DNA of 64,000 nt from Siphonodentalium dalli (taxonomy: Eukaryota > Mollusca > Scaphopoda > Gadilida > Siphonodentaliidae): the NCBI GenBank assembly GCA_032622095.1, contig CP136069.1:129065123-129129122 (forward strand), read 5' to 3'. Below, piece after piece: positions 3,690 to 62,875 of this stretch (its first letter is position 1; each line of letters opens with the position of its first letter). The position numbers were made by a program, and so were the translations under genes. The notes under the pieces are model-generated. The model saw only the letters and a list, made by a program, of their open reading frames with translations. It was not told where the DNA came from and did not search any database.

Positions 3690-3887
3690 GAGTATGTGAT
3701 GACAGAGTTTCTGAGAATGAGTGGTATTTACTGGGGATTAACTACAATGGACCTCCTTGACCAGTTAGACCGAATGAACAAACAGGAAGTGCTTGAGTTT
3801 GTTCAGAGCTGCCAGCATGAGTGCGGAGGATTATCAGCCAGTCCAGGACATGATCCACATCTACTATATACTCTCAGCGCTATTCAG
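3690..3887 (+). CDS. RABGGTB: RABGGTB exon a (first recognised)
   Basis: Acceptor TTTTTGCAG, then 66 codons starting [16 protein letters not shown] and including SCQHECGG and [10 protein letters not shown], then donor GTAAAA. The exon is phase 0 at both ends. In vertebrates this segment follows about 40 residues coded upstream, so it is probably exon 2 or 3 rather than the start. Confidence 0.93.
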
Positions 3888-27868: not shown

Positions 27869-27890
27869 AATCCTAAAGAAAGTTCCAAGA

Positions 27891-28343
27891 CAAGCCTGAG
27901 TTTAGTGTGCCTGTCATTTGCAGAATGAGGTCCCCAGAGGGTGAATTTAGTGGTGCTATACTGCATAGCAGGCTAGCATCACCAAATTCACCCTTTGGGG
28001 ACCTCATTCAGCATGGCCTCATCTGCTATGGGAGACATAGACTCAGATTGAAGTTCCCAAATGGTGAATTTTGTGATGTACACCCATTGGGAACCTCGAT
28101 TATGCAATGTGTCATCTGCCAATTTTGGAATATAGAAAAACGAAACTAAAAAAGAAATATAATCTATGTGAAGAAGTTTCTATAGAAATTTGATGTTAAA
28201 GAAACTTTCCAGAGAAGATGAGGCCTAAGCAGAATGATGTCCCCAGAGGGTGAATTTAGTTATGCTAGCCCGGGATAGTGTCACTAAATTCACACTCAGG
28301 GGACCTCATTCTGCAAATGACAGACACGCTATAATCAGACTTG
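27891..28343. mobile_element. MITE family A in the RABGGTB 3' UTR region
   Basis: Full copy: CAAGCCTGAGTTTAGTGTGCC at left and the complementary type AGACACGCTATAATCAGACTTG at right, each with a hairpin around GGTGAATTTAGTxxTGCTA. Begins 22 bp past the stop codon. Confidence 0.8.
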
Positions 28344-30222
28344 GCCCAAGAGGAGCAATGTTTTCTCAGATGGTGTCAGAGTTTGAACAGCAGCCAACTT
28401 CAGCCCGAGAAAAAATTGTAGCAATATTGCTGACTCCAATCTGCAGGGCCAGGTTTATTAGCATCATTAACCCTTTGAACCCTGACATCCTGAATGTTAA
28501 ATGCTCCCCACCCGAGGCGCCTGACGTTAAATAGTGTTTCGGACGACGAAACTCGTACTGCCCTTTAACTGGGTCATATATACATGTATAGACGCTCAAA
28601 TATACGGCATTTTGCTATGCTAACCGAACTAGTGTGTGATGAAATATGGCACAATGTATTTCAACGAGTCATTCTATTCCACGTTCAATATACATGAAGA
28701 TTATATTGCGGCTTCGCTCTATATATCTATAATGAAATTCTTATCCTTTGCCTGCGATAAAATGCGTTTCTCAAAATGCAACTCTGTGCATGTGCGACGA
28801 AACAGACCGCCTGTCACCAATTTGGCTGCTAAAGTCAGAGATATGAACATGTGACTCATTCGTGCAAAGTTTATAGATGCACAATTCTAGTTAATTTGCA
28901 CTTTGATCGTGAAATATCTGACTGAAATGTTCATCTGAACAAGAAATAAATTGATTTCCTATAGAAACATGACTCAAAATTTTTGTATTTGAGGCATCAA
29001 AGTTGTGTATAACATTAACAAAGGTATAACATTAGCACAGATGCACATTTTAAGAGCTGAGAACGCAGCACATGAATGCCCTTTATTTGTAATTGTCCCA
29101 CTTTTTCCTTCACAACTTCCTCACAAATGAGTTTGTTTGTGCATAACATGATTGCAGGCGACAAATTTAAGAATTTGACATGATTTTTCAACTAAAACAT
29201 TTCGGAATTAATATACATGTAAATCACATCACCAGGGAGTAGGGTGGCGATGTCAGATCACGTCAACGGGTGTTAGGCGACATTTGATATTAAGTGTTAA
29301 AGAGTTAAAAAGGGAGACTGTACCTAAATCCAGCCATTGTATAAGCCATATCCTACTCTATTCAACAGAAAATATGCAACATATGAATGAATGTGAGTCA
29401 GTGATGAGTGCAAAATACACTAATTTACTTTATGAACAATGTAAGAAAACATTGTAATTATAATGAAAATGAATAAATGGCTAAGGCTTTTACTCATTTT
29501 CGTTATAGTTATCAGGTTGTTATATGTGGTTCTTTGTGTGTGTGAGTTGGGTATATAGTAGGAGTTAGCCCCATAAGTGGCTAGATTACGTAAAGATGAA
29601 AAAAAGCATCATGATCATGATTCATATTTATTACATCGTTCCATAAACATTTACACTGTTTTGTTATGTTATTTACAAATAAATTATCACAAAAAATTTG
29701 CAAACCTGATTCTAGCCATTCTTTCCTCCAACCATTTACACATGACAAGCTTTCATACATCATTCATACATGCAGTGGGCTCTTAATATTATAAAATCAT
29801 ACCCCTTAATAACTCCATATTCCATTAGTTTTTCATTCCGATGTCAATACAAAATACTTTGATAATATTGTGCAATTGTTGCTTGCAATTTAAAGTCCAA
29901 AAACTACCTATGAAACATTGGATGATAGAAAACATAATTGATGCCACTGCTGTAAATATTCCTACTCTTGCTGCACTGAAGTCTTTATATAATGGTTTCA
30001 TTTTATTGAGTTAGCAGTTAGTGTGCATTGTCTGAAAATGTTTCTCTTAAATAGCTGTGATAGGTATCATGATTATTTTATTATGTCATATGAAATGGAA
30101 GTACAATTTTCCCCATTTCATATAACGAATAGAAGCATGTAAGAGCCAAGTCACTCTGTAGCTGAATAGCCATCTAGCTGCCGTATTTCCACTGCCATAC
30201 TTTATCCGGATAAAAGATTACA
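28344..30222. other. Intergenic space between RABGGTB and MORN5 3' ends
   Basis: No coding exon recognised. TTAACCCTTTGAACCC near 28468 and AAAGAGTTAA near 29300 may be ends of one degraded inverted-repeat element of about 0.84 kb. Polyadenylation signals for the two genes could not be assigned with confidence; AATAAA occurs at several places. Confidence 0.35.
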
Positions 30223-38233
<8,011 letters not shown>

Positions 38234-44848: not shown

Positions 44849-45261
44849 GAGCCCAAACTCCCTATCTAAGGGTAAAAATCCACGGACAGTGTCGTCGGAC
44901 CGCTTCTGAGAATGTCCGATCACCCCTTCTCCATTGCCACTGCCGCCGTCCTTGGAATTGTGGGGTTAATCGCGTGATAGTTAATAAGCCCAAACTCCCA
45001 ATCTAAGGGTAAAAAACCACGGACAGTGTCGTCGGACCGCTTCTGAGAATGTCCGATCACTCCTTCTCCATTCCCACTGCCGCCGTCCTTGGAATTGTGG
45101 GGTTAATCGCGTGATAGTTAATGAGCCCAAACTCCCAATCTAAGGGTAAAAAACCACGGACAGTGTCGTTGGACCGCTTCTGAGAATGTCCGAGCACTCC
45201 TTCTCCATTCCCACTGTAGCCGTCCTTGGAATTGTGGGGTTAATCGCGTGATAGTTAAAGA
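44849..45261. repeat. 137-bp tandem repeat, three copies
   Basis: GAGCCCAAACTCCC begins each unit (44849, 44986, 45123), followed by CACGGACAGTGTCGT, CCGCTTCTGAGAATGTCCGA and TTAATCGCGTGATAGTTAA. Copies are nearly identical, so the array is young or homogenised. Confidence 0.85.
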
Positions 45262-45369: not shown

Positions 45370-45524
45370 TAGGGGTTCCAAGGAACGGGGGAGATTTTTA
45401 TCGGGTCAGTTTTTCCGCGCGAGGTGACCATGACCTTGAAACGGCTACCCACAAATGATATATATGTGTGCGTGTGTGTCAAATCGGGTAAAACTGGCGG
45501 ATTTCGACGAATTTTTATACCTAG
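45370..45524 (+). repeat. Satellite-like repeat, left flank of the palindromic element
   Basis: Carries GTGACCATGACCTTGAAAC, then CAAATCGGGTAAAACTGGCG, GATTTCGACGAA and TACCTAG. The same blocks in the same orientation lie right of the element (62564-62875). The element starts immediately after TACCTAG. Confidence 0.75.
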
Positions 45525-47044
45525 CAGGGGGGGGGGGGGGGGGGGTCGGAAAAAAATTTCAGGCACGTATGGCATTTTTTCCCTTTCGATCATTTTTTGT
45601 ACCCACCCACCCCCACCGCCAAATTTTTTTCCGTTTTCGGCAGTTTTTTCCGACCATTTTTTGACACCCACCCCCCTTTTAACACTAAAACAGATATTTG
45701 CGGGGGGAAATTCACTGTAAACAGCTTGCTGCATACACGCCGGTTTGGCCGGTAAAGGTATATTATGGAAGTACATTGGAAGTATGGGTACATATTTCTA
45801 CTGCCCTATTGTCTTCCGACATCAAAGGAGATCAAAGGAAAGTACCCCGCCCCGCACCGTATGACGTAACGACGCCGTTTAAGTATGTAAACAAAGAAGA
45901 TCAAAGTACCACTGCCCCCGCACCGTATGACGTAGCGACGCGTGGGTGTTTGAGTATACACGAGTGGGTGTGGGTATTTGTATACGTCACGGGTGTGGGG
46001 GGGTCCTTCAGTATATGGATGTGTACTTCACGGGCGTGGGTGTGGCTATTTGAGAATGGTTGTATACGCTTTCGGGCCCTTGAGAACGGTACAATGGGCA
46101 ATCGAAGTACGCCGTGTATACTGTTCGTCAGGTACGAAGTATATTTAACAACGAAGGTGTAATGAGTCATTACAATCTAACGCAATCCCTTACTTCCGGC
46201 GCAACGCCTGAGTCATTGGAATCTGATGCAATACTTCCGGATGAACCCTACCGGCTGACTCCACGCTCATTGGCCCCGCAGTTCTGGAACCTTCTCCGAT
46301 ATCTCCAATTTTCTGGACCCTATTAAAAATCCCTTCATAATTGCAAAGGCATAGTACATGATCCCTTTACGTTTCATACCTGTGTCGTATGTGGTTCCTT
46401 TAATTTGATACCTGTAATCGAATTCTCAGGAATAAATCAAACTGTACCAGGGCTAAAACACATGTCAATATCCAATAAAGTAAATCACAGCGATATGTTT
46501 CCGTACACAACACAACAGGCAGACAGATTTTTCGAAGCTTCGTAATTAAACACACGTTTAAGTCATTAACTGCCACGATACAGATCAACATGTCTGTTAT
46601 TGAAAAATGCATGTTCCTAATGGCTTCTGTGCAAGGGGTTTGTGAATAGAGTGGTGAATGGGTGCATGAGACCATCACTTCATAGATTTTCCTAGCTATC
46701 CAACTTCAAGCATTTATGAAGTATGTAGGGACACCGATCATTATACATTTTCACAAACAGAGGCACACTAATCGGTCCAGACTGGTACACTATTCTCTTG
46801 AATTCCACATCTGTTAATAATATTTATTAAAATCTATCTCTTCTGGTGCTCTATATGCTTTCATTAATCGTTCTGCCTTACAAATCTTTACATATTACGT
46901 AACAACTCAACTCAATTATTGAATACTTCTCACAACTACCCCCTCTCCCAGCATCTCATCCCCTTTATCTCTCTCTCTCTCTTCTCTCTCTCTCGTCCTC
47001 TCTATGTCTCTCTCTCTCTCTGGTGTATCCCTGTAAACAAATTC

Positions 47045-47284
47045 TCAGAAATCGTTTAGTGCCTTGGCCATATATATTTCAACATATCCAATAATACATA
47101 TGCAGATTACCTCTAGGATGTGGAAAAACAATAACAGAGCGTATCTCCTATAATAGAATATTCTCAAAGTCATCACGTGACCTGACAGTTGGGCAGTAAA
47201 CTCATTAGAATCGACAACGCACTGTCTGTCTATCGAAAGCACTTGTATCACATGATCTGCCAGTGCATTTGGAATGTTCGCCAT
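47045..47284 (-). CDS. Small hypothetical ORF (79 aa), left arm
   Basis: ATG-started frame beginning MANIPNALADHVIQVL with a hydrophobic stretch LLLFFHILEVICICIIGYV near its end, a possible single membrane segment. The right-arm copy (61128-61367) differs by two residues (V/I and A/P). No family recognised. Conservation only reflects the recent arm duplication, so it may not be a gene. Confidence 0.25.
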   Translation of the reverse strand: MANIPNALADHVIQVLSIDRQCVVDSNEFTAQLSGHVMTLRIFYYRRYALLLFFHILEVICICIIGYVEIYMAKALNDF

Positions 47285-47629
47285 GCCATCATAATATAAG
47301 CTTCAGTTTGAATCGCCCCAGTCCATGGTCCCATAACATGTTCTCATTTGAAGACATTTGAAGAGCGTCTGGTTTAATTTCATTGGTAAAGTATTGCACA
47401 ATCATTCACAGAATAGATTAATGGAATCATTCTGCAATTTTCGAAGCTTAACATTCTCCAGCCATTAATTGCTCTGCTGTTTGAATCCACATTATTAAAA
47501 AGATTAAAATCTCTCGCCTGATGCGCTATAACCTTTATCACAAACACATGTCATTAAGTGTGCTGACAGAGGCAACAAAGCTAAGGTCTCGTCTTTCTTC
47601 CCTCGCAATATATTAAACCCTCAAGTTAT

Positions 47630-47908
47630 CTACCTTCTTGAATATTCCCCCTTTAGTAAAGTAAATGATCTGTATACAGGTAATATTACTTTCATGGTCG
47701 TATGTAACCAAACGAGGCCCATCTCATACTCTAGCAAACATAAAACACATGTGTTGAGAATATCAAGGAGTAGCGGAAGAAAGAGAGAGGGGCAGAGAGA
47801 GCGCCAGACGTAGATGTGTGTTGTTTTATGTCTATATATTTCATACACATACAGTAATGCCCTAATTAATCCACCCCTTATCCACAACAGAATTATTGGT
47901 ATTTTCAT
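47630..47908 (-). CDS. Small hypothetical ORF (92 aa), left arm
   Basis: ATG-started frame MKIPIILLWIRGGLIRALLY with further hydrophobic segments (LCPSLFLPLLLDILNTCVLC). Same protein in the right arm (60505-60783). In both arms it lies about 125 bp downstream of a promoter-like module carrying TGACTCA. No family recognised. Confidence 0.3.
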   Translation of the reverse strand: MKIPIILLWIRGGLIRALLYVYEIYRHKTTHIYVWRSLCPSLFLPLLLDILNTCVLCLLEYEMGLVWLHTTMKVILPVYRSFTLLKGEYSRR

Positions 47909-49338
47909 GATTTAGTCGGAAATATGGCTTGCTGCCATTAATCGGAAAGCTCTCACTGGGTTATGTGTGTTTTATAACCTTGGAGACGTTCGTACCGATG
48001 TTTGGTGCTGCTAGTAAATAACCAATACTTACTTCAGGTGCAACACCTGAGTCATTGGAATTTCAATGCAATCCCTGGGTGAACCCTAACGCTCACTCCC
48101 CGCTCATTGGACACATGTAATCTTCAACCACGCAATTTTTCTGGAACATGCTACATGTGGAAACATTCTATTTGACTAGTATTGAAAATTCCTTCATAAT
48201 TCCAATGGCATCGTATATGGTCCGTTTAAAATACCTGTATGTGGCCCCTTTAATATATGTATCCCGACTAATGGTACACTGTTATTTCAATGGCAAACTT
48301 GATTAAATCATCTCTAACAATCGTTAAGCTTTTTTCTCTAACTACAACTTTACAATATGGTGTATATAATCGAACTATCAGGAATCAATCAACGCCTTAT
48401 CCATAGATATTTGAACATACAACTGAACGCATTTTGGGTCACATACATTAAATGTACACATCACTTATGCATTTAAATCTAATTCGGCGTATCCATCAAT
48501 ACAAACGCTCTTTATTTCCAAAATTGTCTCAATACCCCCTCGTTTTAATATAGATTTTAGCTATATGCTTTAATTCATATAAAATTGACGCAAATCTATG
48601 TTAAACGACAGCAGCATTATAACAGAGTAGCCACTTACCTTCAAGTAAAAAAAAGTACCATTGTGTTCTCATTTTCTATCTTATCATAAAGAAATTTGTC
48701 ACGTGCGTGCCAGACGTCACTTAGAGGTAAGCACCATATTTTGGTTCGAATATTTTCAATAACATGGCCACCAGCCTATTTTGAATTTTAGATATTTAAA
48801 AATAAAAAATGTCATGTCAGGCTTATTTTCTCGTCGAACCACGGGGGTTGCTCTCCGTCACTTAGCGGACATCGTCACATATTGGGGACGAATCGGTTGA
48901 GAAATATGGCCTCCAGTGGTCATCTTTTATTTAAGTCATAAATGCACTTCGAATTTTAAAGTGTCATAGTTGGCTCATTTTCCCACCAATCGTTATGAAA
49001 TTTGGCGAGTACGTGCCCGACGTCACTCAGATGTTATCACGAGATTTTAGTTCGAATCATACGAAAAACATGGCCGCTATTTTGTTTTAAGTCATAAAAC
49101 TACAGAAGGAGGTGTAGAGTTTGGTCGTGGTATTTCTCAAGTCATTCTCATTCTGTAGTGTTATTACAAAATCACAAGATAATCGAGGAAGGTCATGCCA
49201 GAGAATAATTTCGACATGGTTTACTACACGTGGGTCGGCTTTTCCATAGCAGTAAAACTGAACGCATCTTTTAAAAATTCACACATTTTATTATTTATTA
49301 AACACAATCCATTTATTCCATTACATAATAATTACAGT

Positions 49339-49860
49339 TTAAAACGAATCAGGTGTATATATTTTGCATAATTCCGGTGAACAGAAACTACACATTAAAA
49401 AGCCAAGCTGATTTTTTTTATGATCCTCTTGCATGTAGCAGGGTACTAAAGTTTGTAGTTCCGGTACAGCCACAGTGACGTCATTAATTGTGGACATCAA
49501 CTGTTCAAATTCTGAGTGGCTAAGAGTTACACCTGTCTTCGTAGGGCAAAGTCTCTCACTGTCTTTCGGGTAAAAGAATTTTCTGATGTGTACAACACTG
49601 TGTTCATGATCATAAGTCACGTGTTCATTATGTCCGATATGTATCCTTTCCAAAAAAGATCTGCTTAGTAAATGTTCATACACTTTCTGCGCGTTATCAG
49701 CTAATTCCAGCCACTGTTGTAATCTCAGGCAGGCGCCGAATTTAGTAGGGAACTTCCCCTCGTTCCATATTCTGATGTCTATATTTTTTATGCTTTTATA
49801 TTCACCGACGATAAGGTATCTATCCCGTCCTAAGTGTTTGGTGAAAATTTTAGAATTCAT
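49339..49860 (-). CDS. Tandem PC4-like ssDNA-binding protein (173 aa), left copy
   Basis: Single-exon frame from ATG to TAA. Residues about 8-52 fit a PC4 (p15) C-terminal domain: RYLIVGEYKSIKNIDIRIW, then GKFPTKFGACLRLQQWLEL. Residues about 74-120 fit a second: YDHEHSVVHIRKFF, then PTKTGVTLSHSEFEQL. The C-terminal tail has CSFCSPELC. PC4 folds bind single-stranded or melted DNA and act in transcription or replication; two in tandem in a short intronless protein is unusual for host PC4. The right copy differs at three places (I/T, L/Q, F/S). Both frames are intact, unlike the neighbouring IAP. Function here is inferred from the fold only. Confidence 0.75.
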   Translation of the reverse strand: MNSKIFTKHLGRDRYLIVGEYKSIKNIDIRIWNEGKFPTKFGACLRLQQWLELADNAQKVYEHLLSRSFLERIHIGHNEHVTYDHEHSVVHIRKFFYPKDSERLCPTKTGVTLSHSEFEQLMSTINDVTVAVPELQTLVPCYMQEDHKKNQLGFLMCSFCSPELCKIYTPDSF

Positions 49861-49985
49861 GGTATCGTTTCGATGAACGCTGAACTGAAACTGTCGGAGA
49901 CACGTGGATGTATTACGTTTATACCCTATATGACGTCATTGGGCGGTCCCATCACAACCGTTTCAAAGTATATAAAACAATCAGA
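49861..49985 (-). promoter_or_regulatory. CRE/TATA promoter of the PC4-like gene, left
   Basis: Mirror of 58440-58562. The palindrome TGACGTCA lies at 49931-49938 next to GGGCGGTCCC and a TATACCC block (a TATA-like box on the - strand), about 70 bp before the ATG. Confidence 0.5.
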
Positions 49986-50185
49986 TTGCCCCCGGAATCG
50001 CATTAGCCAAATATGGAAGGGCCAATCATGTTTCGATCAGAGGGAACTCTCAGACAGTGGCTCGGAAGTACATTAGCTAAATACAGAATAAAGGGTTTTC
50101 GTGGTAAACTGTCTCGGCCTATAGGGAGGGCAGGAAATGACACGCAACTGTGATTCAGGGTATTCACAACGCAGGTATGAATCAT

Positions 50186-50973
50186 TTAACCAAAAGTTTT
50201 GGCATAGGCACGCACTACGCTTCTGCACAAGGGACAAGTCTCAGAACCGAGCGCACACATGCCACACATTGATACGTGTCCACGTGGTAAAAGCACACAG
50301 TTGTTATTATTCTCTAGACAAATGATACATTTGCATTTTTCAGAAACGTCTACTGTCGTATCAGGCCAGTCATCTTCATAGGAACCAGACAGTCTCTCAT
50401 CGTTTATTTCAGTCATTTCTTCGAAATTAACGGTAAAGTCATCTATTGAAAATGTATTCATTTCTTGAACAGAGGCACTATCCACGGGACGTTGCATCGA
50501 AAAAATTCCTGGTACATCGGGGATTTTCATTAAATATCTCGATCTGTTCCACTGTTTATATCTATCTTCAGGCAGGAAACGTTGCAACTAATTGAGATAG
50601 CTACAATTTGGAAAGAAACGGTAATGTTCATATATAGCTACAATTTGGAAAGTAATGTTCAGTTCGAGGATCATCTCTCTTTTCCCATTGCCACAACCTA
50701 CATCCCCAACTATAACATATGGTTTATAGCGGTCTTTGTGAAAAAGAAACCAGCTCCAGCTATTTTAGCAGCCTCCACGGACGAGGTCCAGTTTTCGAAA
50801 GAAGCTAATCTCGAGTGAAAATTTCGATACTCTGGGTATGACGGTTTCCAAGCCACAGTAAGACCATACAAATTTAAAAGTTCTGGTATCGTGCTTACAC
50901 TATTATCGCTCGAATCAGCTGCGTGCGGCGGGATATCCATCACCGGTTGTTTCTCCCCCACCCTGACAAGCAT
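50186..50973 (-). pseudogene. Broken BIR-RING inhibitor-of-apoptosis gene, left copy
   Basis: Same structure and same lesions as the right copy (57450-58237, described there). The BIR part starts MLVRVGEKQPVMDIPPHAAD; the RING part is open at 50186-50530 from an internal ATG. Residue differences from the right copy: R/M near the start, S/P before VEAAK, S/P before RYLMK and M/L in IFSxQRP. The shared lesions show that damage preceded, or was spread by, arm duplication. Confidence 0.75.
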
Positions 50974-51009
50974 TATGAACCTGTAAATGTTAGTTCAAGC
51001 CTTATAACA

Positions 51010-51237
51010 ATGGTAATGTATAGAAACGCGTTCATTGGTCGCTGTATTAACATTATTATTATTGTTTATATAGATATACTTGTTTTCTTTTTACAGATGG
51101 AAAATTTCCAGGCTGAACAGTTTCATCGCAATTTATTCGAAAGTAGTGACCTTATGATGGGAATTAATGCGGGAAGACAACGAATGACCCATTTAAATAG
51201 GACACTATACAACAGACTGGTTGAGTTGGAACCATAA
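51010..51237 (+). CDS. Divergent 75-aa ORF, left copy
   Basis: ATG at 51010. A hydrophobic segment (NIIIIVYIDILVFFLQ), then a polar half (MENFQAEQFHRNLFESSD, RQRMTHLNRTLYNRLVELEP), stop TAA. A TTTTTACAG acceptor-like site lies just before the internal ATG of MENFQ, so the real product may be the 46-residue second half joined to an unseen exon. Diverges from the IAP with 36 bp between start codons. No family recognised; same protein in the right arm. Confidence 0.4.
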   Translation: MVMYRNAFIGRCINIIIIVYIDILVFFLQMENFQAEQFHRNLFESSDLMMGINAGRQRMTHLNRTLYNRLVELEP

Positions 51238-53700
51238 TTTCTAATTTACAAAACCCTCTGTTTATTCGAGGAAATCCGCTAGCTCAAAGGTCCTTGGACA
51301 TTTGTTTCACTTCATGATGCAACATCACGCAATATGTGCCTCTAAATTTGCACGTACCTAGTGAGCATTTGATCTCTAATAGCGATCAGTGAAGTATTTA
51401 GTTCTTATCATAATATTTATAACAGCCAATCAAAACCCGTTGCTGGATTTAACTATATAATACACAGACAAACGGAATGAAAACATCCGTGCACCAACTT
51501 GTGCAAAACCAAAGGACCCAGCTGATGTAGACTAGTATATAAATACTTACTTCATGTATTCTTTTCATCAATGATATGCATTTAACACCTATAAATATAG
51601 TCTGTTATACAGATGAAACATTGCCCACAGTCTCATGCCACGAAAGGCCTACTATGTGAACACATGTGTATATTAATTCCATATTTTCTTGTCAAAACGC
51701 TCTATTATATAACGATGTATTCGTTAAGTTAATCGTTCCTTTATCTTTATTGTTGTTAATTTATAGCATTGTTAGTAGAAATTTAATCTAAACTCGATGG
51801 TATATTGAACATAATGCGTCAATACTGCTTCATTGGTGGTAACTGAACTTATCACATCATGTATCGCAACTAAAACAAGCGAGACAACTCATAAATTTGT
51901 AATAGTTCTCATGTCTATGGCGGTTCACACAGTGTACATTTTCATTGTTGTTACCATTTAATGCACACATTACTGATTTATGCATAAGAACGCGGGTCTA
52001 CATTGTTCTCAAGTAAATATATATTTATATATGTCCATATTTCTTAAAGCAAGTACAGTATCTGTATCTGCTATGACATATAACAAGTGCCATTTTCACA
52101 TGTAAATCACGTATTAAAGCTCTTTAATGTATAGTTAAACTGTTGAGATTTCAGACGCAGGTATATGTCCTTGTGGACTATATACGTGGTATACGTCAGT
52201 ATATACACGAAGGTAATGTGTTCTAAGTATGTGATTTATGTATATGTCCATGTTCCTTTAAGCAAAATCCATTACATATAAACGCGTTGTGACGTATATT
52301 AAGTGTCATTTTCATTGTTGAATCACGTACAATAATAGCAAACGTGGTATTTCTCACAAAGGTAAATCGAAACGGTCATTTATCAAACGAAATGAAATGT
52401 CTGGGATCAAACCTGCTAATCAGGCCTGTGTTTTCACCAACAAGGGAGTTTGATTATGGTTGTATATGATGGTTCAGTCATTATATGACACCTAATCGGT
52501 TGCACACGGTGCTGTCTAAGGTATATCCTGTGCATGTATAATAAATTCTCCATTGATGTTAGGAGTATGGCTCAGTGTCTGATCCATTGCCCATGTATTT
52601 CTTAATATTGCACTCTCTTTACTATGACTCAATTGTATTGTGTGCATATCATAACTGGTATTATATGTATTTTTTATTATTTAATGTAAAAATACCGTGT
52701 ATATGACAATACTTTACTATAGCTGATGTGTTTCTAGAAGCTTATTCATGCTATCATCACATACACTTGAATTAGACACTAACTATCGAGTTATGATTTT
52801 TCCCTGTATTTCCAGGCAATATTCGTGAATGGCAACAATCAGCAATTCTTTTCTGATGAATGGCAAACGAGATTTCTCACCCCCAATATGCCGCATCTAA
52901 CTGACATTTCGATAACCTTTATTGAATCTTAAACACTGTAATTTCTCTAATTTCTCCACGTTACTTCTCCTATACACGTAGTTCGATCAGCTGTCAATGT
53001 CATGTCTGGTGTTGCTGTTGTGTTCTTAATGGACCATCTGCTAACTAACGATGCGTGTCAGGTATGCATACTATTTGTTTTAATATGCCTGGTATACATG
53101 TATTCTCAGACACTCACTCTCAGGTGCATCTCTTCGGTAAAACACATAGATATGATATAGCTGTGCAGTAAGGTTCGTCCATGACATTACTTCATTACGA
53201 CATTCTGATACATAGACCAATCACATAAAAGTAATGAATGTACTCCCAATACGTTAGGCATATCTTTTAACCTGAGTGATGTCACCACGGTTCAAAAACT
53301 TCAAAAATAGTTAAAAGTACACATTTTTATTTCGAATATCATTATTTATGGTAAATTTCGTGTTATGAAATGGGCCATTTTACAAACGCGTAATATGTGA
53401 TTCAAAAAACGTCTATTTGATAAAAAAATTAAACGCTATTATCACTATATTTGGAATATAAAAAACGTTGTATTTGACGAAGTATGACAATGCAAAATGA
53501 CTACTTTTTTAAACGCGAATTTGAAAACACTAATATCGAAACGAATTTTAAACTAATTTCGGGTTATGAAATGACTCATTTTATAATCGCCGTCTAGTCA
53601 AGCGGGAAACTAGTATGTATGTGTAAGTCGACTTAACGCGGACCTCATTAAAGCCCCCCTAAACACCCCCCTGTCCGGATGAAACCCTGACCAAAAAAAA
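51238..53700. other. Non-coding inner part of the left arm
   Basis: 2.5 kb without a credible frame. Degenerate direct repeats at about 215-bp spacing: ATGTCCATATTTCTTAAAGCA (52030), ATGTCCATGTTCCTTTAAGCA (52245), and CATTTTCATTGTTG-type motifs followed by AATCACGTA. These could be binding or replication-type repeats, or simply degenerate satellite. Mirrored in the right arm. Confidence 0.4.
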
Positions 53701-53746
53701 GGGGGATGGGGGAGGGGCGCGCCGTTTTTTATGCCAAAAAAATATG

Positions 53747-54748
53747 ATGTAAGGGTGACTAAATATAATATTGTATACAATATGTATGAAAAATGGTAAA
53801 TATGGTATATTTGCCTATACCCAGGATGATAGTGGAACCATAACTATGGATGTAAAACTGACTAAGATATTGAATTATAGCTATATATTTATTCAGCCAT
53901 AGCACCGCAACATTTTGTACACTTGAAGTACGATTCTTGATACTCCTTATGTTTATAGAATTTTCCTATTCGTATTGTCCAATATGTATTACAGTAGCAC
54001 AGAAACCAGTCACTCCCAATATGCTATTTCACCGAACGTTTCTCTAATATCGCTTCTTTGATGTCATCACCATATGAAGACATATTGTACCATAAATCCT
54101 TGTCCATAGAAATTCCATATTTAATTGGCAAAATACCATCTTATAATTGCCATATGTTTATTTTTGTTTCACCCTTGCCTTCAGTAACTGTCAGTTATCT
54201 CTGTTGTCCATAAATTGACTTCACAATATTCTGGTGATATAGCTCCATGCTTCGCAATGGTTTCTCAGCAAGTGCCTGTGATGGGGGAGTATTGATTTGG
54301 TGGGGGCTACCCCCGGGATGGTCAAAAGAGCCGATTGGCCCTTTCCTTCACCCCCAGTGACTGTGATGTCAAATGCACCTCATTTATATATCTTAATATT
54401 AACCAATGGCAAACACTTATATGTGACATGTATGGACAAGTCCAGTAATACTTCTCTGACTTTTCCGGGAATATAAATACACCTTCTAATATTTTAGTAC
54501 AATGTTCCAAAGCATTAGTGTATAACTCATCTTAACCTTTGATATAAGGTAGTCCACATCCTCAAGTTGCTGTGTATTAATGTATATTCCAAAATATGCC
54601 GCTGCCATTACAGCAACTAATACAAGAAAAACAACGACAACAACCAAACTGACACCACCAACAGCATCAAAAAGGAACCACAACAACAACAATTACAACA
54701 ATACGGTGAACGATTTGGTATGAACCTTGTTGCATGAAAAATATCTGG
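53747..54748. other. Spacer between the arms
   Basis: 1.0 kb of single-copy sequence. Near 54600-54690 is a (CAA)n-rich tract which, on the - strand, gives a hydrophobic Val/Leu run followed by MAAAYFGIYINTQQLEDVDY; low complexity makes this an unreliable gene. Nothing else recognised. Confidence 0.5.
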
Positions 54749-54811
54749 CATATTTTTTTGGCATAAAAAACGGCGCGCCCCCTCACCCATCCCCCTTTTT
54801 TTTGGTCAGGG

Positions 54812-57185
54812 TTTCATCCGGACAGGGGGGTGTTTAGGGGGGGGGGCTTTAATGAGGTCCGCGTTAAGTCGACTTACACATACATACTAGTTTCCCGCTT
54901 GACTAGACGGCGATTATAAAATGAGTCATTTCATAACACGAAATTAGTTTAAAATTCGTTTCGATATTAGTGATAATAGCGTTTAAATTTTTTATCAAAT
55001 AGACGTTTTTTGAATCACATATTACGCGTTTGTAAAATGGCCCATTTCATAACACGAAATTGACCATAAATAATGATATTCGAAATAAAAATGTGTACTT
55101 TTAACTATTTTTGAAGTTTTTGAACCTTGCGTTTTGTGGTGACATCACTCAGGTTAAAAGATATGCCTAACGTATTGGGAGTACATTCATTACTTTTATG
55201 TGATTGGTCTATGTATCAGAATGTCGTAATGAAGTAATGTCATGGACGAACCTTACTGCACAGCTATATCATATCTATGTGTTTTACCGAAGAGATGCAC
55301 CTGAGAGTGAGTGTCTGAGAATACATGTATACCAGGCATATTAAAACAAATAGTATGCATACCTGACACGCATCGTTAGTTAGCAGATGGTCCATTAAGA
55401 ACACAACAGCAACACCAGACATGACATTGACAGCTGATCGAACTACGTGTATAGGAGAAGTAACGTGGAGAAATTAGAGAAATTACAGTGTTTAAGATTC
55501 AATAAAGGTTATCGAAATGTCAGTTAGAGGCGGCATATTGGGGGTGAGAAATCTCGTTTGCCATTCATCAGAAAAGAACTGCTGATTGTTGCCATTCACG
55601 AATATTGCCTGGAAATACAGGGAAAAATCATAACTCGATAGTTAGTGTCTAATTCAAGTGTATGTGATGATAGCATGAATAAGCTTCTAGACACACATCA
55701 GCTATAGTAAAGTATTGTCATATACACGGTATTTTTACATTAAATAATAAAAAATACATATAATACCAGTTATGATATGCACACAATACAATTGAGTCAT
55801 AGTAAAGAGAGTGCATAATTAAGAAATACATGGGCAATGGATCAGACACTGAGCCATACTCCTAACATCAATGGAGAATTTATTATACATGCACAGGATA
55901 TACCTTAGACAGCACCGTGTGCAACCGATTAGGTGTCATATAATGACTGAACCATCATATACAACCATAATCAAACTCCCTTGTTGGTGAAAACACAGGC
56001 CTGATTAGCAGGTTTGATCCCAGACATTTCATTCGTTTGATAAATGACCGTTTCGATTTACCTTTGTGAGAAATACCACGTTTGCTATTATTGTACGTGA
56101 TTCAACAATGAAAATGACACTTAATATACGTCACAACGCGTTTATATGTAATGGATTTTGCTTAAAGGAACATGGACATATACATAAATCACATACTTAG
56201 AACACATTACCTTCGTGTATATACTGACGTATACCACGTATATATTCCACAAGGACATATACCTGCGTCTGAAATCTCAACAGTTTAACTATACATTAAA
56301 GAGCTTTAATACGTGATTTACATGTGAAAATGGCACTTGTTATATGTCATAGCAGATACAGATACTGTACTTGCTTTAAGAAATATGGACATATATAAAT
56401 ATATATTTACTTGAGAACAATGTAGACCCGCGTTCTTATGCATAAATCAGTAATGTGTGCATTAAATGGTAACAACAATGAAAATGTACACTGTGTGAAC
56501 CGTCATAGACATGAGAACTATTACAAATTTATGAGTTGTCTCGCTTGTTTTAGTTGCGATACATGATGTGATAAGTTCAGTTACCACCAATGAAGCAGTA
56601 TTGACGCATTATGTTCAATATACCATCGAGTTTAGATTAAATTTCTACTAACAATGCTATAAATTAACAACAATAAAGATAAAGGAACGATTAACTTAAC
56701 GAATACATCGTTATATAATAGAGCGTTTTGACAAGAAAATATGGAATTAATATACACATGTGTTCACATAGTAGGCCTTTCGTGGCATGAGACTGTGGGC
56801 AATGTTTCATCTGTATAACAGACTATATTTATAGGTGTTAAATGCATATCATTGATGAAAAGAATACATGAAGTAAGTATTTATATACTAGTCTACATCA
56901 GCTGGGTCCCTTGGTTTTGCACAAGTTGGTGCACGGATGTTTTCATTCCGTTTGTCCGTGTATTATATAGTTAAATCCAGCAACGGGTTTTGATTGGCTG
57001 TTATAAATATTATGATAAGAACTAAATACTTCACTGATCGCTATTAGAGATCAAATGCTCACTAGGTACGTGCAAATTTAGAGCCACATATTGCGTGATG
57101 TTGCATCATGAAGTGAAACTCATGTCCAAGGACCTTTGAGCTAGCGGATTTCCTCGAATAAACAGAGGGTTTTGTAAATTAGAAA
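54812..57185. other. Non-coding inner part of the right arm
   Basis: Mirror of 51238-53700, without a credible frame and with the same degenerate direct repeats. Confidence 0.4.
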
Positions 57186-57413
57186 TTATGGTTCCAACTC
57201 AACCAGTCTGTTGTATAGTGTCCTATTTAAATGGGTCATTCGTTGTCTTCCCGCATTAATTCCCATCATAAGGTCACTACTTTCGAATAAATTGCGATGA
57301 AACTGTTCAGCCTGGAAATTTTCCATCTGTAAAAAGAAAACAAGTATATCTATATAAACAATAATAATAATGTTAATACAGCGACCAATGAACGCGTTTC
57401 TATACATTACCAT
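57186..57413 (-). CDS. Divergent 75-aa ORF, right copy
   Basis: Mirror of 51010-51237; the same 75 residues are predicted. Its ATG (57413) faces the IAP ATG (57450) across 36 bp, so the two would share a bidirectional promoter containing GCGACCAATGAACGCG (CCAAT box). Confidence 0.4.
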   Translation of the reverse strand: MVMYRNAFIGRCINIIIIVYIDILVFFLQMENFQAEQFHRNLFESSDLMMGINAGRQRMTHLNRTLYNRLVELEP

Positions 57414-57449
57414 TGTTATAAGGCTTGAACTAACATTTACAGGTTCATA

Positions 57450-58237
57450 ATGCTTGTCATGGTGGGGGAGAAACAACCGGTGATGGATATCCCGCCGCAC
57501 GCAGCTGATTCGAGCGATAATAGTGTAAGCACGATACCAGAACTTTTAAATTTGTATGGTCTTACTGTGGCTTGGAAACCGTCATACCCAGAGTATCGAA
57601 ATTTTCACTCGAGATTAGCTTCTTTCGAAAACTGGACCTCGCCCGTGGAGGCTGCTAAAATAGCTGGAGCTGGTTTCTTTTTCACAAAGACCGCTATAAA
57701 CCATATGTTATAGTTGCGGATGTAGGTTGTGGCAATGGGAAAAGAGAGATGATCCTCGAACTGAACATTACTTTCCAAATTGTAGCTATATATGAACATT
57801 ACCGTTTCTTTCCAAATTGTAGCTATCTCAATTAGTTGCAACGTTTCCTGCCTGAAGATAGATATAAACAGTGGAACAGACCGAGATATTTAATGAAAAT
57901 CCCCGATGTACCAGGAATTTTTTCATTGCAACGTCCCGTGGATAGTGCCTCTGTTCAAGAAATGAATACATTTTCAATAGATGACTTTACCGTTAATTTC
58001 GAAGAAATGACTGAAATAAACGATGAGAGACTGTCTGGTTCCTATGAAGATGACTGGCCTGATACGACAGTAGACGTTTCTGAAAAATGCAAATGTATCA
58101 TTTGTCTAGAGAATAATAACAACTGTGTGCTTTTACCACGTGGACACGTATCAATGTGTGGCATGTGTGCGCTCGGTTCTGAGACTTGTCCCTTGTGCAG
58201 AAGCGTAGTGCGTGCCTATGCCAAAACTTTTGGTTAA
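57450..58237 (+). pseudogene. Broken BIR-RING inhibitor-of-apoptosis gene, right copy
   Basis: IAP proteins use a BIR zinc domain to bind caspases or adaptors and a RING to ubiquitinate targets. Here the BIR begins in frame from ATG 57450 (YRNFHSRLASFENWT, then AAKIAGAGFFFTKT) and ends at TAG 57711. Its zinc half continues in the next frame (CYSCGCRLWQWEKRDDPRTE, HYFPNCSYI) to TGA 57793-57795. A near-copy of the HYFPNCSY segment follows in the third frame, reaches TAG 57833-57835, and the same frame runs on through a linker to a RING (KCKCIICLEN...CPLCRS), ending at 58237. So the gene has one shift in the BIR, a duplicated segment causing a second shift, and a nonsense codon. The RING's third ligand is also lost: LPRGH replaces the usual PCGH. 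No intron fits these breaks, since splicing them out would remove the BIR zinc ligands. Confidence 0.78.
57893..58237 (+). CDS. Residual RING ORF (114 aa) of the IAP relic, right
   Basis: First ATG in the surviving RING frame gives MKIPDVPGIFSLQRPVDS, an acidic linker (FEEMTEIND, SYEDDWPDTTVD) and a C-terminal IAP-type RING. It could be expressed alone as a BIR-less RING protein, but the third zinc ligand is Arg rather than Cys (one transition from TGT to CGT), so E3 activity is doubtful. The matching left ORF is 50530-50186. Confidence 0.45.
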   Translation: MKIPDVPGIFSLQRPVDSASVQEMNTFSIDDFTVNFEEMTEINDERLSGSYEDDWPDTTVDVSEKCKCIICLENNNNCVLLPRGHVSMCGMCALGSETCPLCRSVVRAYAKTFG

Positions 58238-58439
58238 ATGATTCATACCTGCGTTGTGAATACCCTGAATCACAGTTGCGTGTCATTTCCTGCCCTCCCT
58301 ATAGGCCGAGACAGTTTACCACGAAAACCCTTTATTCTGTATTTAGCTAATGTACTTCCGAGCCACTGTCTGAGAGTTCCCTCTGATCGAAACATGATTG
58401 GCCCTTCCATATTTGGCTAATGCGATTCCGGGGGCAATC

Positions 58440-58562
58440 TGATTGGATTATATACTTTGAAACGGTTGTGATGGGACCGCCCAATGACGTCATATAGGGT
58501 ATAAACGTAATACATCCACGTGTCTCCGACAGTTTCAGTTCAGCGTTCATCGAAACGATACC
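58440..58562 (+). promoter_or_regulatory. CRE/TATA promoter of the PC4-like gene, right
   Basis: GATTGG (inverted CCAAT) at about 58441, a GGGACCGCCCAA block, the full CREB/ATF palindrome TGACGTCA at 58485-58492, and GGTATAAACG about 15 bp later, then the ATG at 58563. Compact spacing typical of a strong inducible RNA polymerase II promoter. Assignment rests on motifs only. Confidence 0.5.
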
Positions 58563-59084
58563 ATGAATTCTAAAATTTTCACCAAACACTTAGGACGGGA
58601 TAGATACCTTACCGTCGGTGAATATAAAAGCATAAAAAATATAGACATCAGAATATGGAACGAGGGGAAGTTCCCTACTAAATTCGGCGCCTGCCTGAGA
58701 TTACAACAGTGGCTGGAATTAGCTGATAACGCGCAGAAAGTGTATGAACATTTACAAAGCAGATCTTCTTTGGAAAGGATACATATCGGACATAATGAAC
58801 ACGTGACTTATGATCATGAACACAGTGTTGTACACATCAGAAAATTCTTTTACCCGAAAGACAGTGAGAGACTTTGCCCTACGAAGACAGGTGTAACTCT
58901 TAGCCACTCAGAATTTGAACAGTTGATGTCCACAATTAATGACGTCACTGTGGCTGTACCGGAACTACAAACTTTAGTACCCTGCTACATGCAAGAGGAT
59001 CATAAAAAAAATCAGCTTGGCTTTTTAATGTGTAGTTTCTGTTCACCGGAATTATGCAAAATATATACACCTGATTCGTTTTAA
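58563..59084 (+). CDS. Tandem PC4-like ssDNA-binding protein (173 aa), right copy
   Basis: Intact single-exon copy of the protein at 49339-49860, with the family-like residue in RYLTVGEY where the left copy has Ile. Domain 1 spans about residues 8-52 and domain 2 about 74-120. AATAAA occurs at 59095-59100 shortly after the stop, a likely polyadenylation signal. It lies downstream of the IAP relic on the same strand. Confidence 0.75.
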   Translation: MNSKIFTKHLGRDRYLTVGEYKSIKNIDIRIWNEGKFPTKFGACLRLQQWLELADNAQKVYEHLQSRSSLERIHIGHNEHVTYDHEHSVVHIRKFFYPKDSERLCPTKTGVTLSHSEFEQLMSTINDVTVAVPELQTLVPCYMQEDHKKNQLGFLMCSFCSPELCKIYTPDSF

Positions 59085-60170
59085 ACTGTAATGGAATAAA
59101 TGGATTGTGTTTAATAAATAATAAAATGTGTGAATTTTTAAAAGATGCGTTCAGTTTTACTGCTATGGAAAAGCCGACCCACGTGTAGTAAACCATGTCG
59201 AAATTATTCTCTGGCATGACCTTCCTCGATTATCTTGTGATTTTGTAATAACACTACAGAATGAGAATGACTTGAGAAATACCATGACCAAACTCTACAC
59301 CTCCTTCTGTAGTTTTATGACTTAAAACAAAATAGCGGCCATGTTTTTCGTATGATTCGAACTAAAATCTCGTGATAACATCTGAGTGACGTCGGGCACG
59401 TACTCGCCAAATTTCATAACGATTGGTGGAAAAATGAGCCAACTATGACACTTTAAAATTCGAAGTGCATTTATGACTTAAATAAAAGTTGACCACTGGA
59501 GGCCATATTTCTCAACCGATTCGTCCCCAATATGTGACGATGTCCGCTAAGTGACGGAGAGCAACCCCCGTGGTTCGACGAGAAAATAAGCCTGACATGA
59601 CATTTTTTATTTTTAAATATCTAAAATTCAAAATAGGCTGGCGGCCATGTTATTGAAAATATTCGAACCAAAATATGGTGCTTACCTCTAAGTGACGTCT
59701 GGCACGCACGTGACAAATTTCTTTATGATAAGATAGAAAATGAGAACACAATGGTACTTTTTTTTACTTGAAGGTAAGTGGCTACTCTGTTATAATGCTG
59801 CTGTCGTTTAACATAGATTTGCGTCAATTTTATATGAATTAAAGCATATAGCTAAAATCTATATTAAAACGAGGGGGTATTGAGACAATTTTGGAAATAA
59901 AGAGCGTTTGTATTGATGGATACGCCGAATTAGATTTAAATGCATAAGTGATGTGTACATTTAATGTATGTGACCCAAAATGCGTTCAGTTGTATGTTCA
60001 AATATCTATGGGTAAGGCGTTGATTGATTCCTGATAGTTCGATTATATACACCATATTGTAAAGTGGTAGTTAGAGAAAAAAGCTTAACGATTGTTAGAG
60101 ATGATTTAATCAAGTTTGCCATTGAAATAACAGTGTACCATTAGTCGGGATACATATATTAAAGGGGCCA
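59085..60170. other. Non-coding arm segment between PC4-like gene and module
   Basis: Contains dispersed-repeat style units with GGCCATGTTTTTCG, AGTGACGTCGGGCACG and GGCACGCACGTGACAAATTTC (about 59330-59720). No ORF of note. Mirror of about 48240-49300. Confidence 0.4.
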
Positions 60171-60174
60171 CATA

Positions 60175-60385
60175 CAGGTATTTTAAACGGACCATATACG
60201 ATGCCATTGGAATTATGAAGGAATTTTCAATACTAGTCAAATAGAATGTTTCCACATGTAGCATGTTCCAGAAAAATTGCGTGGTTGAAGATTACATGTG
60301 TCCAATGAGCGGGGAGTGAGCCGTTAGGGTTCACCCAGGGATTGCATTGAAATTCCAATGACTCAGGTGTTGCACCTGAAGTAAG
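60175..60385. promoter_or_regulatory. Promoter-like module 1, right arm
   Basis: Contains CCAATGAGCGGGGAGTGAG and TTCCAATGACTCAGG, with the AP-1/MARE core TGACTCA at 60359-60365 and then TGCACCTGAAGTAAG. A related module lies at about 62000-62235. The 92-aa ORF starts 120 bp downstream. Mirror copy at about 48028-48270. Confidence 0.4.
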
Positions 60386-60504
60386 TATTGGTTATTTACT
60401 AGCAGCACCAAAAATCGGTACGAACGTCTTCAAGGTTATAAAACACACATAACCCAGTGAGAGCTTTCCGATTAATGGCAGCAAGCCATATTTCCGATTA
60501 AATC

Positions 60505-60783
60505 ATGAAAATACCAATAATTCTGTTGTGGATAAGGGGTGGATTAATTAGGGCATTACTGTATGTGTATGAAATATATAGACATAAAACAACACACATC
60601 TACGTCTGGCGCTCTCTCTGCCCCTCTCTCTTTCTTCCGCTACTCCTTGATATTCTCAACACATGTGTTTTATGTTTGCTAGAGTATGAGATGGGCCTCG
60701 TTTGGTTACATACGACCATGAAAGTAATATTACCTGTATACAGATCATTTACTTTACTAAAGGGGGAATATTCAAGAAGGTAG
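60505..60783 (+). CDS. Small hypothetical ORF (92 aa), right arm
   Basis: Same protein as 47630-47908, with no residue change. ATG-started, hydrophobic N-terminal third (IILLWIRGGLIRALLYVY) and a second hydrophobic region. No family recognised; retention of the frame is weak evidence because the arms are so similar. Confidence 0.3.
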   Translation: MKIPIILLWIRGGLIRALLYVYEIYRHKTTHIYVWRSLCPSLFLPLLLDILNTCVLCLLEYEMGLVWLHTTMKVILPVYRSFTLLKGEYSRR

Positions 60784-61127
60784 ATAACTCGAGGGTTTAA
60801 TATATTGCGAGGGAAGAAAGACGAGACCTTAGCTTTGTTGCCTCTGTCAGCACACTTAATGACATGTGTTTGTGATAAAGGTTATAGCGCATCAGGCGAG
60901 AGATTTTAATCTTTTTAATAATGTGGATTCAAACAGCAGAGCAATTCATGGCTGGAGAATGTTAAGCTTCGAAAATTGCAGAATGATTCCATTAATCTAT
61001 TCTGTGAATGATTGTGCAATACTTTACCATGAAATTAAACCAGACGCTCTTCAAATGTCTTCAAATGAGAACATGTTATGGGACCATGGACTGGGGCGAT
61101 TCAAACTGAAGCTTATATTATGATGGC

Positions 61128-61367
61128 ATGGCGAACATTCCAAATGCACTGGCAGATCATGTGATACAAGTGCTTTCGATAGACAGACAGTGCATTGTCG
61201 ATTCTAATGAGTTTACTGCCCAACTGTCAGGTCACGTGATGACTTTGAGAATATTCTATTATAGGAGATACCCTCTGTTATTGTTTTTCCACATCCTAGA
61301 GGTAATCTGCATATGTATTATTGGATATGTTGAAATATATATGGCCAAGGCACTAAACGATTTCTGA
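61128..61367 (+). CDS. Small hypothetical ORF (79 aa), right arm
   Basis: Right-arm copy of 47045-47284 with two residue differences. Hydrophobic C-terminal half ending YVEIYMAKALNDF. Followed by a (GA)n tract. No family recognised. Confidence 0.25.
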   Translation: MANIPNALADHVIQVLSIDRQCIVDSNEFTAQLSGHVMTLRIFYYRRYPLLLFFHILEVICICIIGYVEIYMAKALNDF

Positions 61368-61999
61368 GAATTTGTTTACAGGGATACACCAGAGAGATAG
61401 AGACATAGAGAGGACGAGAGAGAGAGAGAGAGAGGGAGAGAAGAGAGAGAGAGAGATAAAGGGGATGAGATGCTGGGAGAGGGGGTAGTTGTGAGAAGTA
61501 TTCAATAATTAAGTTGAGTTGTTACGTAATATGTAAAGATTTGTAAGGCAGAACGATTGAAGAAAGCATATAGAGCACCAGAAGAGATAGATTTTAATAA
61601 ATATTATTAACAGATGTGGAATTCAAGAGAATAGTGTACCAGTCTGGACCGATTAGTGTGCCTCTGTTTGTGAAAATGTTTAATGATCGACGTCCCTACA
61701 TACTTCATAAATGCTTGAAGTTGGATAGCTAGGAAAATCTATGAAGTGATGGTCTCATACACCCATTCACCACTCTATTCACAAACCCCTTGCACAGAAG
61801 CCGTTAGGAACATGCATTTTTCAATAACAGACATGTTGATCTGTATGGTGGCAGTTAATGACTTAAACGTGTGTTTAATTACGAAGCTTCGAGAATCTGT
61901 CTGCCTGTTGTGTTGTGTACGGAAACATATCGCTGTGATTTACTTTATTGGATATTGATATGTGTTTTAGCCCTAGTACAGTTTGATTTATTCCTGAGA

Positions 62000-62235
62000 A
62001 TTCGATTACAGGTATCAAATTAAAGGAACCACATACGACACAGGTATGAAACGTAAAGGGATCATGTACTATGCCTTTGCAATTATGAAGGGATTTTTAA
62101 TAGGGTCCAGAAAATTGGAGATATCGGAGAAGGTTCCAGAACTGCGGGGCCAATGAGCGTGGAGTCAGCCGGTAGGGTTCATCCGGAAGTATTGCATCAG
62201 ATTCCAATGACTCAGGCGTTGCGCCGGAAGTAAGG
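62000..62235. promoter_or_regulatory. Promoter-like module 2, right arm
   Basis: Second copy of the module: GGGCCAATGAGCGTGGAGTC, TTCCAATGACTCAGG (TGACTCA at 62208-62214) and CGCCGGAAGTAAGG, an ETS-type GGAAGT core. Mirror copy at about 46185-46440. Confidence 0.4.
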
Positions 62236-62254
62236 GATTGCGTTAGATTGTAAT

Positions 62255-62554
62255 TACTCATTACACCTTCGTTGTTAAATATACTTCGTACCTGACGAAC
62301 AGTATACACGGCGTACTTCGATGACGGAAGTATACGATTGCCCATTGTACCGTTCTCAAGGGCCCGAAAGCGTATACAACCATTCTCAAATAGCCACACC
62401 CACGCCCGTGAAGTACACATCCATATACTGAAGGACCCCCCACACCCGTGACGTATACAAATACCCACACCCACTCGTGTATACTCAAACACCCACGCGT
62501 CGCTACGTCATACGGTGCGGGGCGGTGGTACTTTGATCTTCTTTGTTTACATAC
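62255..62554. repeat. Subterminal short-motif region, right arm
   Basis: Repeated CACACCC / GTATAC / ACCCACAC motifs and ACGTATACAAATACCC blocks. The mirror at 45883-46160 adds a second copy of CGCACCGTATGACGTA. Such subterminal clusters often bind transposases. It keeps long spurious frames open. Confidence 0.45.
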
Positions 62555-62563
62555 CCCCCCCTG

Positions 62564-62875
62564 TACCTAGCGGTACTTTTGTCCGGGGGATGTTTTGGAC
62601 GGGTCAAATCTTTACCACGACATGACCTTGATCTTCAAAATTGTCAATGCAAGGTCAAATCGGGTAAAAATGGCGGATTTCGACGAAATTTGATACCTAG
62701 GTGCAACACACGTGTCTCGGAAGCTATTGCAATTGCTTTTTCAAACAAAGCCATGGGACGAACCACGCCAGGTGTACTTGTGTCCGGGGAGCGTATTGGA
62801 CGGGTCAAATCGTGACCAGGACCTGACCTTGACCTTAAAAATGGTAAATTCAAGGTCAAATCTGGTCCAATGTTG
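62564..62875 (+). repeat. Satellite-like repeat, right flank, about 202-bp unit
   Basis: Two units starting GTCCGGGGxxxGTxTTGGAC near 62580 and 62780, with CGGGTCAAATC, TGACCTTGATCTTCAAAAT, AAGGTCAAATCGGGTAAAAA and GATACCTAGGTG. Same orientation as 45370-45524. Confidence 0.75.

Follow-up and report, generated by a model that had tools for sequence, protein, structure and literature searches.

A dispersed family of 17.8-kb palindromic elements in the scaphopod Siphonodentalium dalli, probably satellites of Maverick-type elements

How does an animal chromosome come to carry an element of about 17 kb that is almost wholly palindromic, with the same genes on both of its arms? The question is raised by a stretch of 64,000 nucleotides from the scaphopod Siphonodentalium dalli (assembly GCA_032622095.1, contig CP136069.1, positions 129,065,123 to 129,129,122, forward strand), hereafter the window. 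A preliminary description of this DNA proposed three origins: a non-autonomous cargo transposon, a virus-derived element integrated as an inverted dimer, or a host palindrome made by break-induced replication. The last of these did not survive comparison with the rest of the genome. The first two merge, probably, into one explanation: the window holds an aged copy of a palindromic, non-autonomous satellite family of Mavericks/adintoviruses, replicated and integrated in trans.

The palindrome and its dispersed family

Alignment of the window with itself bore out the two near-identical arms facing each other across a 1.0-kb spacer. The inverted arms 45883-53450 and 54964-62554 align over 7608 columns at 98.55% identity, and an inner inverted pair (53528-53746 and 54749-54972, a 224-bp block) is 96.9% identical. 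With gaps left out, 7705 of the 7761 compared positions are identical, and 14 indel events separate the arms. This match is far above chance expectation. The layout is as follows.

45727..53746, plus strand: left arm, from the family terminus to the spacer (self-alignment; terminus set by comparison with sister ends)
53747..54748, no strand: spacer (loop) of about 1.0 kb, conserved among sister copies (self-alignment; spacers of about 1.0 kb in 10/10 sister centres)
54749..62554, minus strand: right arm, without about 150 bp of its outer tip (self-alignment; loss seen against sister ends)

The palindrome is not alone. A 1-kb probe from the left arm, compared with the 2.23-Gb genome of 9 contigs to which the window belongs, gave at least 41 matches when 40 of the 1107 first-look candidates were scored. 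Thirty of these form 15 plus/minus inverted pairs, namely the window copy and 14 sisters spread over seven of the nine contigs. The remaining 11, among them three clustered on C3 and one fragment of 34 bp, may have unscored partners. The ends of the 14 sister pairs and four single right ends, 32 in all, were examined, and every one starts with TGCTGCATA. An exact 6-bp target-site duplication flanks 13 of the 14 sister pairs, with none at copy C8:189.6; for one pair the duplication, TCGCGC, was read directly from the flanks, where the script had chosen other strings. The length of the sister pairs is nearly constant, 17,724-17,982 bp in 13 of 14 (mean 17,792, standard deviation 68), the last measuring 13,465 bp. 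All ten of the full-length centres that were read have the loop, and the adjoining arm stretches agree at 99.5-100%. The full element is thus about 17.8 kb long, made of two mirror arms of about 8.4 kb and a 1-kb loop, with TGCTGC... at both tips. It is a real, dispersed family of palindromic elements, with young members.

These sister pairs decide two of the alternatives. A one-off host palindrome made by break-induced replication is refuted, because the 14 dispersed pairs share an end, a near-constant length (13/14) and 6-bp duplications (13/14). Copies lacking fixed ends had been named beforehand as the outcome that would count against a mobile element; the copies share both fixed ends and duplications. 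An assembly artefact, such as a head-to-head join of two haplotypes, was considered as well, as an arm identity of 98.6% could reflect alleles. Such a join is hardly conceivable for the window, since 14 further places, on seven of the nine contigs, show this layout too, and at 13 of them 6-bp duplications flank the arms; as an account of the whole family, it is refuted by the 14 recurring sister pairs.

Two loci depart from the common structure. In the 13,465-bp copy (L085, C1 6.22 Mb), the loop is gone together with unequal portions of the arms, while the outer duplication is intact, as expected of palindrome instability. At C3 43.86-43.89 Mb (L004-L006), three arms lie at one place, and just before the middle end stands the outer duplication in reverse complement, which suggests a rearrangement of a single insertion.

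The window copy itself is an old, damaged member of the family. The preliminary description had placed its ends at CAGGGG (45525) and CCCCTG (62563), which are flanked by 7-bp direct repeats, TACCTAG, and had proposed a search for other CAGGGG-ended copies. The sisters carry TGCTGCATA ends instead (found at 45727 in the window), and none of ten sister pairs tested has CAGGG ends with a duplication. Hence CAGGGG and TACCTAG, which had at first hinted at a foldback element of the P or hAT type, were dropped as termini. On the right, alignment to the sister ends stops about 150 bp before the tip, everything beyond 62554 being lost.

45727..45735, plus strand: family terminus TGCTGCATA, with the trinucleotide TGC doubled (same start in 32/32 sister ends)
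45518..45726, no strand: left flank, TACCTAG and the CAGGGG-led sequence beyond the family terminus (45609-45726 resembles flank DNA of another copy)
62555..62570, no strand: right flank, CCCCCCCTG and the second TACCTAG, abutting the shortened right arm

The CAGGGG-led flank is probably an older repeat that received the palindrome. The most economical reading, short of proof, is that the palindrome inserted into a repeat with CAGGG ends and later lost its right tip. Further into the right flank, at 62573-62866, a short dispersed repeat is present twice; it also occurs near or within the family copies L022 and L058, and L049, L051 and L052.

Genes carried by the arms

Each arm carries a gene with two PC4 stretches, as had been described; the open reading frame (ORF) and its Pfam matches are mirrored across the palindrome. 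The BIR-RING IAP gene had been called a relic. It is indeed broken in the window, in the same way in both arms; in the sister copies it is open.

49339..49860, minus strand: tandem-PC4 gene of the left arm, 173 aa (Pfam PF02229, two stretches)
58563..59084, plus strand: tandem-PC4 gene of the right arm, 173 aa (Pfam PF02229; model pLDDT 88.7)
50186..50994, minus strand: BIR-RING IAP gene of the left arm, broken (open in sister copies)
57429..58237, plus strand: BIR-RING IAP gene of the right arm, broken (Pfam)
46189..48228, plus strand: repeated modules, 46189-46273 with 48028-48110 and 46321-46369 with 48180-48228
48652..49088, plus strand: repeated module, 48652-48782 with 48958-49088, 71%

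In all 26 sister arms, the longest frames with IAP motifs (211-243 aa) and with PC4 motifs (182-198 aa) are open. The IAP frame reaches 242-243 aa in both arms of seven of 13 copies and is shorter in at least one arm of the others; one sister frame matched the Pfam models of BIR (3.5e-17) and RING (3.7e-11). The divergent small ORFs are without a Pfam match, and ten other ORFs of the window gave none above the cut-off. The tested ORFs, 16 from the window and seven from sister pieces, also bear out that no transposase, integrase or polymerase is visible by Pfam. Scans of the window against Rfam and for tRNA genes were negative. The repeated modules noticed inside the arm are confirmed as diverged direct repeats present within each arm and mirrored across the palindrome. 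Between the PC4 and IAP genes (49860-49990 and its mirror), a TGACGTCA site is flanked on both sides by TATA-like boxes, as seen by eye; together they are a possible candidate for a two-way promoter.

Fourteen relatives of the PC4 protein were found in the protein database, and in the alignment of 15 sequences, two C-terminal cysteines are invariant. Searches of phage sequences, IMG/VR and the protein database for its kin gave no viral context. Against sister L041, the PC4 gene of the right window arm has eight synonymous changes over 103 sites and four non-synonymous changes over 416 sites (Fisher p 0.0005); against sister L039, it has seven and six, respectively (p 0.006). These substitution counts indicate that PC4 is constrained between the window and a sister copy. 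Between the left and right arms of the window, PC4 has three changes, all non-synonymous. For the RING piece, comparison of the window with three sisters gave no sign of constraint (pS 0.024-0.048, pN 0.044-0.047), and the RING counts among the sisters are too small to judge it. The contrast between coding (11/1242) and non-coding (130/1244) divergence in two sisters was not used as a sign of selection, because most of it stems from a single divergent stretch at the edge of the piece, where the first 252 positions compared contain 88 differences.

The gene content bears on another alternative, that the palindrome is what remains, after integration and much decay, of the repeat region of a larger DNA virus, such as the inverted repeats of a herpesvirus around a short unique part. 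The palindrome shares with such regions its inverted repeats, its short unique segment and its IAP gene, and the repeats of malacoherpesviruses are of similar size. An integrated malacoherpesvirus is reported in a lancelet, where the coding density is put at ~70% (PMC12373286). Each 8-kb arm of the palindrome, by comparison, has two recognised genes, a sparse content; moreover, a herpesvirus fragment would not be expected to have exact 6-bp duplications or a single end sequence shared by separate copies. A viral repeat region of this kind is therefore very improbable.

The same two domains are also found together in bivalves. BIR plus PC4 genes are described by Song et al. 2021 as an innovation of the hard clam and mussels, as a G3-type IAP (PMC7831173). 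There, the domains belong to a single gene, whereas here each has its own gene, the two lying side by side in a mobile element. The pairing raises the idea that part of the bivalve IAP expansion, including the BIR plus PC4 type, derives from mobile elements.

Probable kinship with Mavericks and a proposed cycle

The TGCTGC ends, the 6-bp duplications and the length of 17.8 kb fit the pattern of vertebrate Mavericks. Intact vertebrate Mavericks (Polintons) are given as 16,862 +/- 1,678 bp long, with 6-bp duplications and end motifs such as (AGT)2, and the repeated end motifs are tied by the authors to jumping-back in protein-primed replication (PMC8097293). The palindrome has such a repeated motif at its tips in kind (TGCTGC, 32/32 ends), with a triplet other than those quoted.

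Mavericks are also present in the same genome. PolB genes (PF03175) with long open frames are numerous, with at least 149 matches (69 of 1596 candidates scored). Maverick A, at about C2:222982878-222999110, is bounded by 1.19-kb terminal repeats (97.9% identical) and has a PolB match, an rve-Chromo integrase and a tandem PC4, which is 34% identical to that of the palindrome (E 6e-26). Maverick B, at C9:149518309-149532964, has 495-bp repeats, AGTAGT ends, a 6-bp duplication (GACAGA) and an rve gene; it is nested within a copy of Maverick A (L088-L092: C2 222.98 Mb; C9 149.52 Mb). The genome thus contains, beside the palindrome, two families of Mavericks whose PolB frames are open.

A link to adintoviruses comes from the predicted fold of the PC4 protein. 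The best viral match of the model is to MOSUB from an adintovirus of a lancelet (21% identity, TM 0.61/0.52, E 9.7e-07), and MOSUB from another adintovirus follows at E 0.012; a tandem PC4 of this type is an accessory rather than a defining feature of adintoviruses. In the PDB, the PUR-alpha, MoSub1 and PC4 folds were retrieved, none below E 0.001. Anti-apoptotic cargo is a further likeness, as the palindrome has an IAP, and most mammal-associated adintoviruses seem to encode anti-apoptotic homologues and/or candidate oncogenes (PMC11071296). Unlike adintoviruses, the palindrome has no PolB, Hexon or chromodomain integrase among the tested ORFs; the last of these is present in Maverick A. It is not classed as a Maverick proper, because none of the tested ORFs matched PolB or the RVE integrase; nor was a capsid gene recognised among them. 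It also differs from Mavericks in that the palindrome covers nearly the whole element.

The main rival is a giant cut-and-paste element of the foldback type: its terminal repeats would have become overgrown, the PC4 and IAP genes would be captured cargo, and a DDE transposase of the GingerRoot/IS3EU kind would move it. GingerRoot resembles the palindrome in its 6-bp duplications and, occasionally, in TG..CA-type ends beside TA..TA; IS3EU also makes 6-bp duplications, and its ends are TA..TA, which speaks against it (PMC10045372). That foldback repeats can grow long, even in the absence of a transposase, is illustrated by Galileo of the P superfamily, whose copy 112, of 9,021 bp and transposase-free, is the longest and has repeats of 4,246 and 4,680 bp, i.e., 4.2-4.7 kb (PMC4168063). 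Even these are about half as long as the present arms, the genes are others, and Galileo duplications measure 7 or 8 bp. The only 7-bp repeat here, around 45525-62563, lies outside the family ends and is not found with the ten sister pairs tested. The hAT elements make an 8-bp duplication, again unlike the 6 bp of the palindrome. A foldback origin leaves unexplained why PC4 is common to a Maverick of the same genome, why the end trinucleotide is doubled and why the length is constant and Maverick-like; it is accordingly an unlikely explanation, well behind a Maverick/adintovirus satellite.

Such a satellite could persist as follows. The integrase of a helper Maverick would insert the element, and the protein-primed polymerase of the helper would copy the element starting at either tip. 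The single strand displaced in this way could then form a long hairpin, where the arms would correct each other and so stay identical. Packaging, i.e., the capacity of the capsid, would set a constant length near that of a Maverick. PC4 may act on single-stranded DNA or in transcription, and the IAP may postpone the death of the host cell. The element may have arisen when one end of a Maverick was duplicated in inverted orientation, in the manner of the symmetric defective genomes of adenoviruses. These recombinant adenovirus genomes are linear, carry one viral end at both tips and are replicated by the protein-primed polymerase of their helper. They are laboratory or passage products, whereas the present element is a chromosomal family. 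More generally, and more tentatively than the assignment of the window copy, heritable palindromic satellites of Maverick/adinto-type viruses may exist: snap-back linear genomes with a viral-type end at both tips, a protein-primed hairpin stage that equalises the arms, a size fitted to the helper capsid and an anti-apoptotic gene.

Agreement between the arms was compared over about 2.2 kb of the gene region in 13 sister copies and the window. No difference between left and right arms was found in nine of the 13 sister copies, and three to nine differences were found in the other four; the window arms differ at 11 of 1775 sites. Mean divergence is 1.18% between copies vs. 0.10% within them, the former being inflated by one divergent stretch. 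Many of the sister copies are near-identical, and few are informative on homogenisation. Copy C4:31.15 has no difference between its arms over 2214 positions and 60 against the right arm of the window; against C8:40.43, it differs at 21 of 2195 positions outside the first 300. Copies C4:164.4 and C4:223.6 have none within and five to the nearest copy. Arms that are alike inside copies, despite divergence between copies, point to an event in which the arms pair, and the palindrome would be its readable record.

Several points weigh against kinship with Mavericks and adintoviruses. The evidence for homogenisation rests on few copies, and copy C2:23.95 has the opposite pattern, with nine differences within and five to nine to other copies. 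The fold match to MOSUB is a single viral hit under E 0.001, with the modest TM values and identity given above, and the IMG/VR scans gave no viral relative of the palindrome's PC4. Transposase, integrase and polymerase are all absent from the Pfam results. A Maverick with TGCTGC ends was not found in this genome, the ends of Mavericks A and B being different, and three further PolB loci (relatives of Maverick A) lack TGCTGCAT in the 5 kb covered on one side of each. TGC is missing from the end motifs quoted for vertebrate Mavericks, and the terminal repeats listed there, 46-1,447 bp, are far shorter than the arms of about 8.4 kb (PMC8097293). No match to the palindromic element was found in the literature by titles and the openings of abstracts, which is no claim that palindromic Polintons are absent from print.

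Mavericks encode capsid homologues, while their particles have not been observed (PMC8097293). If the elements are satellites of Mavericks, a young family of constant length would be natural evidence of a working replication and integration machinery, and perhaps of packaging, in an animal.

Surroundings of the palindrome

Other repeats are present in the window. An inverted-repeat element at 7437-9224 has arms (7437-8211 and 8462-9224) that are 95.3% identical, about 250 bp apart, and tips that start with TCACACGGAGG. A repeat family of about 450 bp, with internal inverted symmetry and 86-89% likeness, is found at 15233-15679, 27890-28344 and 31547-32006. Immediately left of the palindrome, at 44850-45258, a 137-bp unit is present in three tandem copies. 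Exon-like ORFs at 3588-4898 and 34223-34591 resemble, by eye, Rab geranylgeranyltransferase beta and a MORN-repeat protein, respectively; with such host-like ORFs nearby, the palindrome sits within ordinary host sequence.

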